DNA of 64,000 nucleotides from assembly GCF_000744775.1 (NCBI RefSeq), contig NZ_JQMP01000001.1:310001-374000 (forward strand). The letters run 5' to 3'. Below the pieces are notes generated by a model. The model ran no database searches, had not been told where the DNA came from, and worked only from the letters and a program-made list of their open reading frames with translations. This document shows positions 39,055-44,613 of this stretch, one piece after another (positions within the stretch are counted from its first letter, which is position 1; every line of letters starts with the position of its first letter). A program made the position numbers and the translations under genes. Source of the stretch: Thermorudis peleae. Lineage in GTDB: Bacteria > Chloroflexota > Chloroflexia > Thermomicrobiales > Thermomicrobiaceae.

Positions 39055-40746
39055 CTAGGATAGGAGCCGCATTTGCCGGGTGAGCAGCTGGGCTCCCAGG
39101 CGGCCGAGGAGTACGTGGTAGGGCACATTGGCCTCGGGATGCGCCTCAAAGCGCTGCCGCTCAAAGTACTGCACCGTGTAGACCTGGCCCGTGTCCGGGT
39201 TCGGCTCGGCGAACGGCTCGCTGATCGGGTAGCCAAAGGTCGCCAGTCCACCGTTCTGCTGCCAGAAGGCGAGGAAGTCGCCGCAGACGTTGTGCCCAGT
39301 CTGGGCGAAGTAGACGCAGCCGGGCGCGTTGTTGGGCTGCGCCGGCAGGAACGGCGCCTGGCCCTGCCGCCCGGCCGTGATCTCGTCACCGAGCAGGCCG
39401 AGCAGCACGTCGTAGCGCTGCGGGAACTGGCCCGGGTGCCACTCGAAGCGGGCGCGTTCGAACCACTGGGTGACATAGCCGGTGGTTGGATCGGTGTACT
39501 CCTCAGTGATCGGGTAACCGAAGATGGCCAGGCCGCCGAACCGCTGCCAGTAGGCCCGAAAACCGTAGCAGAGGTTGTGCTGCGTCTGCGGGAAGGAGAT
39601 GCAGGCCGGGTTCGCGCTGGGCGGAGCGGGCTGGGCAGCGACCTGCAGTGCTGACGGCGGTTGTGGGACCGGGGCAGGCTGCGGTGCTGGCGTCGTCTGT
39701 GGAGCCGGCAGTGGCATTGGTGTCGGCATTGGCTGCGGTGTTGGTTGTGGTGCTGACGTCGGCGACGGTATTGGCGTTGGCATCGGCGTCGGCGTGGGCA
39801 TCGGCACGGGCTGGCTGCTGCTACCAGGTCGCGATACGGCTGCGATCTGGCAACTGTGCTGAACGCAGTAGTTTGTCAAAAATGTGAAGATGTCGGCGGT
39901 GATCCGCCGGGCTACGTTGGCTGATCGCATTTCAAAGGACACAAGGCCGATAATCCCAAGGTCGCTCGTGTTGAGCACTGGACTGCCGCTCATCCCTTCA
40001 GTGAGGGCTGCTTGGGTATCGAGCAACGTGCTCGTCACGCCGGTGAAACCCTGAGCGCTGACCATCCATTGGGTGCCGAGCGGCTTGTCGCCCGGATAAC
40101 CACTAATCAGGTAGGAGAAGCTTGGGCTTGTCACCAGCGCTGTCGACGCGTTCTCCGGCGCGAGCATCCCCGCGTTGCGACCGAGTGGAGTATCAAGGAG
40201 CACAATGCCAACATCATAAGTTGGATCACCACCACTCTGTTGCCAGCCAACCGGCACCGCCCCCTGTACCGCGTTTGCATACCCAAACGGTGCAAACGGC
40301 TTGCCGTTCAGCAAGTCAGCGCCCGGGACGACAAACAGGGTTGAGGAAAACGCGTTGAGGACTGGATCAAAGAGACAGTGGGCAGCGGTCAGCAACACAT
40401 TTGGCCCAATGAGTGCACCCGAGCATAAATAGTTGGTGCCATCAGCCTCTGTGCCAAGGATGAGCGTAATGGCCGAAAACGGGAAGCGGGTTGTATCGGT
40501 AACACGTATTCGATTATCGACGCCGAAAATACGCTGATACGCGGCTCGCTGGGCCACGGTTGCCAACGCGGAAGCAGGATCAACCGGTCGAGGCTGGAAC
40601 GTCCCGACGATCGGCGTCAGTGGGCCGCTGGCGGCTGCCTGTGCTGCTGGTGCCCACACGCTTGCTGGCACCACCGTGCTAGCGAGCCATGTCGGCGCCA
40701 GCAGGCCAAGCACGACCATCACCGCGACAACCACCTGACGAAGCAT
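39055..40746 (-). CDS. Secreted trypsin-like serine protease with C-terminal repeats
   Basis: A 563-residue exported protein. Signal peptide at ~1-38 ending near AQAAA, then an S1/V8-like protease with the triad His (LLTAAHC), Asp ([10 protein letters not shown]) and Ser (TEGMSGSPV). A Pro/Thr/Met repeat linker (~310-365, [14 protein letters not shown]) leads to two ~75-residue repeats: [15 protein letters not shown]...[14 protein letters not shown] and [15 protein letters not shown]...[14 protein letters not shown], each ending in a WFERARFE or YFERQRFE block. Such repeats are common on exported Chloroflexota proteins in my recollection. ATG 40746 follows GGGGGGAAG. Confidence 0.88.
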
Positions 40747-40966
40747 GCGCTCTTCCCCCCTGCTCTCCACTGAACGAGTAGCCCGCTGGCAACCCGGCCC
40801 TGCCTACCATCGGGCCCGTACTGCCGCCGACATACCGATAGTATTGCAGAAGCTGGAAGGAAGGGATTCCCTCTGGCCTCATGTAGCTAGCCCGCGGACT
40901 GGCGTATCGAGAGGATATGCGCTGGCCTAATGAGTCCGCAGGGTGCGGAGAAGGGTGTGCAGTGCG

Positions 40967-42448
40967 TCAGCTGTCGACCGGGCCAGACTGGCCCGCAAGT
41001 GGCTCCGCTCAGCAGAACCACGATTCAGTCAGTCGCGGTGGTGACGGCCGGTGGCTGCGTCGTGGCGGCTCACGCCGTGGCTCAAGGCCTGCCGCTTGAT
41101 CGGCCAATGCCCGCACCGTTGCGAACGTGACATAGGGATCCCAGTCCTCACGGGTCGCTCGCTCAGCCACGGCCGCTACTTGCTGTTGAAGGATGTCCAT
41201 GCGTGGGTCGGGATGCTGCCAGGTGTAGGTGAAGTGAGCCGGATCGAGCGGTCCGACCCACTCGACGGCATCCTCGCGCTCCAGGAGGGCTGAGCCAGGA
41301 GGCACGAGCAGGCGGATTGACAGATGCACTGGGTCGATGTGCTCAATCAGCCCGTGCGTCTCGATAAAGTCCAGCAGGTCACGGTAGTCCTCGAGCGTCG
41401 TCCACGGGGTAAAGGGAAGCAGCGAGGGTCGCATGGCAATGCCGGCATCGTCAAGGATCGCCAGGGCCGCCTCGATGTCGGCTCGCGTATGCCCTTTGTC
41501 AAGTTTGGCAAGCACATGGTCGCTTGGGATTTCGACTGCCGAGACAACGAAGATGCAGCCCAGCGCAGCAAACTCGCGGAAGAGTGTACGGTGGCGCAGG
41601 ATGTGCTCGATGCGAGTCGTGAAGTCGAACGTGACGTCGGGGAAAGTAGCGTGCAGTTCACGACAGATTCGCAGGCTATGCGTTGGCCCGTTGAGGAAAT
41701 CAGGGTCACCGAACGTGATGTGGCGAACGCCTTGCTCCACCTGTCGGCGGATATCGGCTAGCACGACCTGGCGTGGGACAGCAAAGAAACGCCCGCGGTA
41801 GAGCGGGACAATTGGGCAGTGGAGGCAGGTGTGGTGGCAGCCACGCGTGGCTTCAGTATAGCCTGCCGGTACAGCCCGCCCATTCCAAACCAGATGCGCA
41901 TAGTGACGCGGCGACGGTAACTGCTCGCGAGCTGGCACGGCAAAGTCAGTGCGGACAAGCGCGGGGCCAGCACGGTGCTGGCGGTCGCTGACGCCCGGCA
42001 CTGGGCCATGCTCGCCACGTTCGAGTGCCTGTACCAGCGCCAGCAGCGGCTCCTCATATTCTCCGCCGATGACGTAGTCAGCCCACTGGCTCAGCAGGTA
42101 TTCAGCGTTGAGCCAGGCGTAGAGGCCGTAGAAGCAGATGCGGGCCGTGGGGTTCCAGGCGCGCACCTGAGCCGCCACGTCCACTCCCAGCCGCAGCGCA
42201 GTGTGCATCGGCACAGCAATCGCGACGAGGTGGGCAGGCTCAACGTCAGCGGGCGTCAGCGGCGTGACAGCTGTATCGACCGCGCGCGGGCAGTAACCGG
42301 CCCGCTGCAGCACAGCCAGCGGCGAAGCCAGGCTGAACGGCTGGTGGCCGAGTTCGTAGCAGGAGACGAGTAGCACGGCGCCCGCCTCTCGCCAGCTGGC
42401 AGGCGACGGCAGCGTTGCCGATGGTGCACAATCAACATTACCCGGCAT
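40967..42448 (-). CDS. CUAEP-tail radical SAM selenoprotein
   Basis: Radical SAM enzyme read through an in-frame UGA at 41009-41011. From ATG 42448 (GGAGG 5 nt upstream) there are 479 residues, Sec at 480, then AEPLAGQSGPVDS and a stop at 40967-40969, total 493. The N-terminus (~20-150) resembles the cobalamin-binding fold but lacks the DxHxxG motif. The core has ATRGCHHTCLHCP, the 4Fe-4S CxxxCxxC at about 204, 208 and 211, and FGDPDFLNGP. The tail reads ESWFC-U-AEP, matching the family known as CUAEP/CCAEP-tail radical SAM protein. A SECIS-like hairpin begins 16 nt after the UGA starts. Substrate unknown; no Sec machinery in the window. Confidence 0.88.
40979..40995 (-). promoter_or_regulatory. 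Bacterial SECIS-like hairpin
   Basis: On the minus strand CGGGCCA-GTC-TGGCCCG gives a perfect 7-bp stem with a three-base loop, starting at position 17 counted from the U of UGA. The loop with closing pair reads A-GUC-U, close to A-GGUC-U in the E. coli fdhF SECIS, and at nearly the same distance. It would recruit SelB with Sec-tRNA. Confidence 0.78.
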
Positions 42449-42513
42449 GTGCACCTCCCGCTGGCAAGGATACCCCCGCCGCTTCCTTCGCGGCAGCGTC
42501 TCCGTAACCAGGA

Positions 42514-42735: not shown

Positions 42736-42889
42736 ATGACGAAGCCGATCGTCTCGGTCCGCCAGCTCACCTTTCGCTACCGTGAACAGAAGTACAACGC
42801 TCTCAACGATGTCTCCTTTGACATCTTCCATTGCCATCGGCGGGTTCATGCTGTCCGGTCGCGAGCAGTTCGTCGAAGAGGCTGAGTAA
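42736..42889 (+). pseudogene. ABC-transporter ATPase fragment (truncated)
   Basis: From ATG 42736 the product MTKPIVSVRQLTFRYREQKY, then NALNDVSFDI, is the start of an ABC ATPase, most like energy-coupling-factor ATPases. It breaks off at ~30 residues, before the Walker A motif. After the break another frame reads IGGFMLSGREQFVEEAE and a stop at 42887-42889, possibly the C-terminus of a partner gene. An internal deletion fusing two genes explains both. The following ~200 nt to 43098 hold nothing recognisable. Confidence 0.7.
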
Positions 42890-43098: not shown

Positions 43099-44613
43099 GT
43101 GCGCACGATGACGGTCACCGCCCAACGAGGCACGCATCACCGCTGGTACACGCCGCATTGGGCTGCGGTCCTGGCCGCTGTCGTAGCCGGCTGCGTCTGG
43201 CTCGTCGTGCTGCCCCGTATGCTCGTGCGCCTCAATCCGCTCACAGGCGACGAGCCGTTCTACGTCATGACCGCACTGAGCCTGATCCGTGAGCACACGC
43301 TTGATGAAACCCGGGTGTACACTATCGATCGCCTGTTTCTCTCCTTCTATCCGCCGAACCCCCTGCCGGCTGACTGGCAGGGTTGGTCGAGCTTCCCCAA
43401 CCCGCTGCCACCACACGCTGCGCATTCCCGCCTGCCGGGATTGCACACAAAGCACGGGCTGGGACTCTCACTGCTCATCGCGCTGCCGTGGGCGCTCGGC
43501 GGGCGGCTGTTGACGGAGCTGACGTTGCTGGCGATTGCTGTGTTAGTAACAGCGAACATGGCGCTCTTGGCCAGTGAGGCAGGAGCACCACCCTGGCTGG
43601 CTGCACTACTGGCAGTCGCGCTGGCCGTCGTGATGCCAATCGGCCCCTACGCCTTTCTGATCTTCCCTGAATTACCAGCTGCACTCGCCCTGCTCTACGC
43701 TGTGCGCCGCTTGACTGCGCCCGCCAATGCTCGCTGGCAATGGCTGCTGGCTGGGTTGGGCATTGGCTTCTTGCCATGGTTGCACCAACGCTTCGTCTTC
43801 AGCGCGGCAGTACTCGGACTGGTCGCGCTCGGCCGACTGGTTCAGGCCTGGCGGCAAGCTGCCGATTGGCACAGGCCGCTCTGGGCTGTTGTACCGGCTG
43901 CGCTTGGTGGACTGGGGATCGTGGCCTATAACCTGTGGCTCTACGGCACACCCTGGGAGAACCCAGCTGATCACGCTGGGTTCTCTGGCCTTGTTGGCAC
44001 GCTCAATGGAGCGGCTGGGCTGTTACTCGATGCCCAGTGGGGACTCTGGATCGCAGCACCTGTGACGATACTGGCGCTGACAGCCTTGCCCTGGTGGCTG
44101 GCTGCTGACCACTCGCGTGCCCAACTTGCGCTGGCAGCCCTAGCCCCCTATCTCATCCTTGTCGCCGCTTATCGCGTCTGGTGGGGCGAATGGGGTCCGC
44201 CGGCCCGCTACCTCGTACCGGTTGTGCCCTTTGCAGCTGGCTCACTCGGGGCATGGTTGAGCCGAGCACACGGCTGGTCGGCGCGGCTTGGCTGGCTCAT
44301 TGGTGGACTCCTTTGGGTTTGGGGGGCAGCACTCACCGTTGTTGGCTACCTTGATCCGCAGCGTTTCTACCACCATCCCGACGGCGTCAATAAGCTGGTC
44401 AAGGCATTGACGACGTCGTTTGGCCACGACCTCAGCGGCTGGCTTGTGGCTTACCAGTTTTATCATCCCTCACCCGTTCCCCTCCGGCTTGCAGCTGCCG
44501 CTCTCGCTGCGAGCGCTGTGCTCCTCGCGCTCGCGTTAGTTGGCCCGCCACCAACACGCCAGCCATCGCCGCAGCCCCTGGTGAGTAGGTACAATGAGCC
44601 TTCGGGAGGGTGA
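43099..44613 (+). CDS. Polytopic membrane protein, possible GT39-type glycosyltransferase
   Basis: A 504-residue integral membrane protein with ~10-12 hydrophobic helices. The first periplasmic loop has LTGDEPFYVMTALSL, where the Asp-Glu resembles the catalytic acidic pair of dolichyl/polyprenyl-phosphate mannosyltransferases and related PMT/ArnT-like enzymes. A second loop has WWGEWGPPARYLVPVVPF. I infer a polyprenyl-phosphate-sugar transferase, but the family match is loose. GTG 43099 or ATG 43108 may be the start; GGGGAGG is upstream. It ends 4 nt before the next gene. Confidence 0.7.
   Translation: MRTMTVTAQRGTHHRWYTPHWAAVLAAVVAGCVWLVVLPRMLVRLNPLTGDEPFYVMTALSLIREHTLDETRVYTIDRLFLSFYPPNPLPADWQGWSSFPNPLPPHAAHSRLPGLHTKHGLGLSLLIALPWALGGRLLTELTLLAIAVLVTANMALLASEAGAPPWLAALLAVALAVVMPIGPYAFLIFPELPAALALLYAVRRLTAPANARWQWLLAGLGIGFLPWLHQRFVFSAAVLGLVALGRLVQAWRQAADWHRPLWAVVPAALGGLGIVAYNLWLYGTPWENPADHAGFSGLVGTLNGAAGLLLDAQWGLWIAAPVTILALTALPWWLAADHSRAQLALAALAPYLILVAAYRVWWGEWGPPARYLVPVVPFAAGSLGAWLSRAHGWSARLGWLIGGLLWVWGAALTVVGYLDPQRFYHHPDGVNKLVKALTTSFGHDLSGWLVAYQFYHPSPVPLRLAAAALAASAVLLALALVGPPPTRQPSPQPLVSRYNEPSGG

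Follow-up and report, generated by a model that had tools for sequence, protein, structure and literature searches.

The minus-strand gene at 40970-42448 of the window (the entire 64-kb stretch of Thermorudis peleae DNA analysed here) is very probably a selenoprotein of a known radical SAM family, NF040546. We give this reading a probability of about 0.97, because of its match to the family profile, the alternation of UGA and cysteine codons among homologues, the presence of SelA, SelB, SelC and SelD, a covarying hairpin, and the co-occurrence of SelA. The selenoprotein claim is sound and already catalogued, the family with its selenocysteine (Sec) tail standing in NCBIfam and the window gene being a member; new in this analysis are the genomic context, with its link to an amino-acid ligase, and the parallel with ArsL. 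A radical SAM enzyme with selenocysteine in its tail is unusual, and the nearest characterised relative, ArsL, serves to make an organoarsenical antibiotic. The near-obligate tie to a single amino-acid ligase makes a testable two-enzyme pathway out of an orphan family, whose function can be tested now that both the partner ligase and the ArsL parallel have been found. The gene and its parts are listed below.

40970 to 42448, minus strand: CUAEP-tail radical SAM selenoprotein (predicted), frame read through UGA, 493 amino acids from the ATG, with an NF040546 match and an AF2 model.
41816 to 41839, minus strand: CxxxCxxC radical SAM cluster motif (C204, C208, C211), invariant across 70 aligned homologues as well as 4 ArsL-type proteins.
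41009 to 41011, minus strand: in-frame UGA, predicted to be read as Sec at residue 480, adjoining the invariant Cys479; homologues have TGA or a Cys codon here.
40970 to 41008, minus strand: C-terminal extension AEPLAGQSGPVDS, missing if the UGA is a stop; Glu482 and Pro483 are invariant.
40979 to 40995, minus strand: SECIS-type hairpin with a six-pair stem (nucleotides 14-19 with 25-30 after the UGA), loop AGUCU and covariation.
40967 to 40969, minus strand: terminating UGA, beyond which homologues have no conserved motif.

Translation of 40967-42448 on the minus strand, with the first UGA read through, gives a product ending LTESWFC-U-AEPLAGQSGPVDS before the UGA at 40967-40969. The sequence-only reading had proposed exactly this readthrough at 41009-41011 with an end at 40967, and its coordinates and peptide agree with the translation to the letter. 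Up to the first UGA the gene spans 41009-42448, and two start codons are candidates, GTG at 42454 or ATG at 42448, with homology beginning at about residue 20-25. A sequencing error as the source of the UGA was rejected because the same UGA occurs in 32 other loci, and a second Sec at the terminal UGA (40967-40969) was rejected because no conserved motif follows it. Upstream, on the plus strand at 42736-42830, a short stretch, MTKPIVSVRQLTFRYREQKYNALNDVSFDI, resembles the start of an ABC-transporter ATPase before the similarity fades, and is perhaps a gene relic.

Profile search of the extended product against NF040546, the NCBIfam equivalog named 'CUAEP/CCAEP-tail radical SAM (seleno)protein', returned 791.2 bits over profile positions 1-467 of 468, far above the cut-off of 500 bits. 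The family invoked in the sequence-only reading is therefore real, and its judgement that the motif is not a chance occurrence is borne out, the extension completing the NF040546 match and [AS]EP directly following the UGA or Cys codon in 80 of 80 homologous loci. In Pfam, only the radical SAM domain PF04055 was found (41.2 bits, cut-off 29.5). Across 70 aligned proteins, P471, E475, W477, F478, C479, C/U480, E482 and P483 are invariant, with the C[UC]AEP columns as a whole invariant or nearly so. The AF2 model has a mean pLDDT of 92; the tail, its less confident part, stays at about 82 up to residue 480 and falls lower afterwards. The best structural match is AprD4 (Z 27.7, rmsd 3.7, 415 residues), followed by MgmA (Z 26.3 over 360 residues, reaching residue 482), OxsB and TsrM (Z about 25-26 for the last two). 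To our knowledge, no reaction has ever been demonstrated for a member of NF040546. The literature searched contained no mention of CUAEP or RCCLKC, and its matches to CCAEP were unrelated; the family is absent from the text of a 2026 review of the prokaryotic selenoproteome, and the viral contigs and phages searched held no relative of the product.

Four lines of evidence indicate that the UGA is decoded. At the codon following WFC, homologous loci from many phyla carry TGA in 32 of 80 cases and TGC or TGT in the remaining 48, and nothing else. Aligning the homologues, as had been suggested from the sequence alone, places Cys opposite the UGA and reveals that the tail beyond is common to them; all four Sec genes that were to be sought, selA, selB, selC and selD, are present in the genome, each scoring above its own family cut-off (SelA 559, SelB 333, tRNA-Sec 73 and SelD 376 bits). 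Neither of the two outcomes that the sequence-only reading had named as refuting it was obtained. The selD gene (contig C3, 56074-57009) itself contains one in-frame TGA, in the context HCAG-U-AGKLGP, and SelD is therefore probably a selenoprotein of this genome too. SelA exceeds its cut-off in 29 of 30 genomes with the UGA form, the remaining one having a SelA fragment where a contig begins; among genomes with the Cys form the count is 11 of 20 (Fisher p 7e-5 with the fragment counted and 5e-4 without it, kinship being ignored).

A SECIS-type hairpin lies 14-30 nucleotides 3' of the UGA, with a loop that in UGA genes is mostly AGU(U/C)N, and in the predicted fold of the window sequence it forms the core. 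Among 30 distinct UGA sequences, 96% of the hairpin pair cells are standard pairs, compared with 73% on average and at most 80% in 1000 column shuffles, and sliding the 3' arm by 1-3 nucleotides lowers pairing to 16-55%. Pair types vary along the stem: pair 18-26 is C-G in 15 of the 30 sequences and U-A in 13, pair 17-27 is A-U, G-C, G-U or C-G, and pair 15-29 is mostly G-C, U-A or C-G. Of the six pairs, UGA genes form 5.73 on average and Cys genes 2.92, the Cys homologues mostly lacking the hairpin. The folding energy of the window hairpin by itself is not below that of shuffles (z 0.29), and pairs with double changes are no more frequent than in shuffles (207 of 1000 reach the same count), so the evidence for the hairpin is the share of cells paired, the variety of pair types and the contrast with the slid controls. 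Taken together, the sequence evidence shows that the UGA is very probably translated as Sec, the genome having the complete SelABCD system and the gene a conserved SECIS hairpin.

The search for a partner within the 64-kb window yielded none: by the clustering of neighbour genes used, the direct neighbours (a protease-like gene at 39055-40770 and a membrane protein gene at 43099-44613) do not recur in the relatives. In other genomes, the genes that recur close to CUAEP encode an ATP-grasp protein of roughly 430 amino acids (30 loci), a formyltransferase-like protein (18), a DUF169 protein (12), YggX, which acts in iron trafficking (11), and an NfuA-like protein (4); arsenic genes are absent from the recurrent neighbours identified. 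In T. peleae the ATP-grasp, YggX and formyltransferase genes stand together from position 305884 of contig C1, about 1-4 kb before the window begins (C1 310001) and some 44 kb away from the CUAEP gene. The partner ATP-grasp protein combines PF13535 with LAL_C2, and its closest solved structure is the L-amino-acid ligase BL00235 (126.6 bits, residues 24-404); judged by these domains and this structure, it is an L-amino-acid ligase.

This ligase was found in 49 of 50 homologue genomes, in some as contig-edge fragments. In an evenly sampled set of 300 Chloroflexota genomes, it occurs in all 71 that have CUAEP and in 22 of the 229 that do not (Fisher p 1e-49, kinship being ignored), and in at least 39 of the 71, by a hand count of coordinates, no more than about 5 kb separates the two genes. 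In one family of the same class, 8 genomes have both genes, at least 10 of the genomes listed lack both, and none has one alone. The 22 ligase-only genomes contain no close CUAEP protein, only weak matches of the strength of generic B12-type radical SAM proteins; the ligase is thus not dependent on CUAEP. An NfuA-like gene lies beside or near the ligase in 8 of 20 ligase-only loci read, across several families, and in one further ligase-only locus YggX takes its place. The ligase itself may serve some iron-sulfur function, and the presence of YggX, NfuA and DUF169 near CUAEP genes hints at a setting of iron or iron-sulfur metabolism, or else just at the supply of clusters. Neither the partner ligase nor the parallel with ArsL is described in the literature searched.

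ArsL forms a carbon-arsenic bond by transferring the aminocarboxypropyl group of SAM to arsenite (PMC8552651). Between the 70 CUAEP and 4 ArsL-type proteins, 35 invariant positions are common, comprising 33 body residues and the CC pair, and including the cluster cysteines, E32, H206, H282, E306, K318 and the terminal CC. All four ArsL-type proteins, which come from plasmids, end KRCCLKC; the pairing of the CC residues between the two kinds of tail is suggestive only, since the tail alignment crosses a long gap. A redox or metal/cluster role for the tail had been put forward from the sequence alone; binding of a thiophilic substrate would be a more specific reading, because the tail resembles the RCCLKC of ArsL. 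We propose, at somewhat less than even odds, an ArsL-like mechanism. The [4Fe-4S] cluster on C204, C208 and C211 would cleave SAM, while the invariant C-terminal Cys-Sec (or Cys-Cys) pair would hold the thiophilic substrate near the active site; with Sec in place of Cys the tail would be more nucleophilic and would bind more strongly as a ligand. The substrate would then receive the 3-amino-3-carboxypropyl group, or some other fragment of SAM, giving an unusual amino acid, which the L-amino-acid ligase, 44 kb away here and adjacent in many relatives, would couple into a dipeptide. Weighing against this mechanism are the lack of arsenic genes among the recurrent neighbours identified, the low identity between the ATP-grasp proteins of ArsL-type loci and the CUAEP-linked one, and the 22 genomes that have the ligase alone.

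Vicinal Cys-Sec pairs are often redox-active, and the tail could instead serve as a relay in which a Cys-Sec selenenylsulfide returns the enzyme or its cluster to the reduced state or shields it, the enzyme carrying out ordinary hydrogen abstraction on a small molecule with no aminocarboxypropyl transfer. YggX (11 loci) and NfuA (4 loci) beside the gene, both tied to iron-sulfur protection, would suit such a relay, as would AprD4, the best structural match, which is a dehydratase. ArsL, however, is much nearer in sequence to the product than AprD4 is, retains a CC pair close to its very end and performs substrate chemistry with a thiophilic element (PMC8552651). W477, F478, E482 and P483 are invariant as well, which suggests a specific docking role for the tail, and on balance the relay appears unlikely, though still credible.

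A different order of events would have the CUAEP enzyme modify the dipeptide made by the ligase rather than supply an amino acid to it. The co-occurrence is asymmetric, every CUAEP genome in the sample having the ligase and 22 genomes having the ligase alone, and such one-sided dependence is what would be expected if CUAEP acted after the ligase. Against this, ArsL itself uses free arsenite and SAM (PMC8552651), and the ligase-only genomes may employ another amino acid; we consider this order doubtful. Returning to the ArsL-like mechanism, its fullest form is speculative and itself rather unlikely as a whole: in Thermomicrobia, Ktedonobacteria, Nitrospira, Planctomycetes and others, CUAEP proteins would act as Sec-tailed aminocarboxypropyl transferases in a new biosynthetic route. 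Their product would be an amino acid bearing a carbon-heteroatom or carbon-metal(loid) bond, which a dedicated L-amino-acid ligase would convert into a dipeptide, all against a background of iron-sulfur protection.

The homologue on the T. roseum megaplasmid (NC_011961.1, 5953-7389) illustrates what happens when UGA is taken as a stop: the protein is named CUAEP/CCAEP-tail, but its listed coding sequence ends at the UGA and the name-giving tail is therefore missing, the very loss that the sequence-only reading had anticipated. Databases can thus name a member of NF040546 correctly yet list it without its tail. That the UGA is a true stop, with the protein ending at Cys479 and the downstream similarity a leftover, would fit this listed sequence and the unremarkable folding energy of the single hairpin, but is highly improbable given the protein-level conservation past the UGA, the covarying stem, the full Sec machinery and the alternation with Cys codons.

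On a tree built without the tail (a quick tree, no bootstrap), the UGA/Cys state requires at least four changes, two of these being forced by strongly supported branches. Several Thermogemmatispora genes have a Cys codon yet retain five or six of the six hairpin pairs, which in these few sequences would point to a relic SECIS and a Sec-to-Cys change, as if recent. In Thermomicrobium sp. CFH 73360 the gene occurs twice, on separate scaffolds and beside the same neighbours, reflecting either duplication or an assembly artefact.

Compared with known systems, the product is a full-length member of NF040546 with no difference of substance, having the same cluster motif, tail motif and Sec/Cys alternation; only the sequence AEPLAGQ sets it apart from most other members, which have AEPTxxQ. 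Its overall fold resembles that of B12-domain-type radical SAM enzymes (AprD4, TsrM, OxsB and MgmA) at about 16-21% identity, and a fold common to AprD4-type enzymes reveals no function. The partner encoded in the same genome is like the L-amino acid ligases BL00235/BacD over residues 24-404, including the LAL_C2 domain, and falls under the cut-off of every named NCBIfam ligase.

ArsL (NF040542) is the second-best family for the product and has a similar architecture, with a terminal CC pair in both, but the product is not ArsL itself because it scores 330.8 bits against a cut-off of 450. The RCCLKC terminus of ArsL is absent, and the tail WFCUAEP of the product, WFC[UC]AEP in the family, follows an additional segment of about 45-60 residues. 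Of the 4 ArsL-type loci examined, 3, on plasmids of Priestia, Alicyclobacillus and Pantoea, also encode an ATP-grasp protein, with arsM, arsN1 or further arsenic genes next to it, a hint that these loci may yield arsinothricin-like compounds in dipeptide form. LAL_C2 matches in two of these three ATP-grasp proteins are weak and under the cut-off, and the pairing of a radical SAM enzyme with an ATP-grasp protein may be convergent in the two families, since the ATP-grasp proteins share only about 25% identity with the CUAEP-linked ligase. The CUAEP and ArsL families seem to use the same logic, a radical SAM enzyme together with an amino-acid ligase, whether through ancient descent or convergence.
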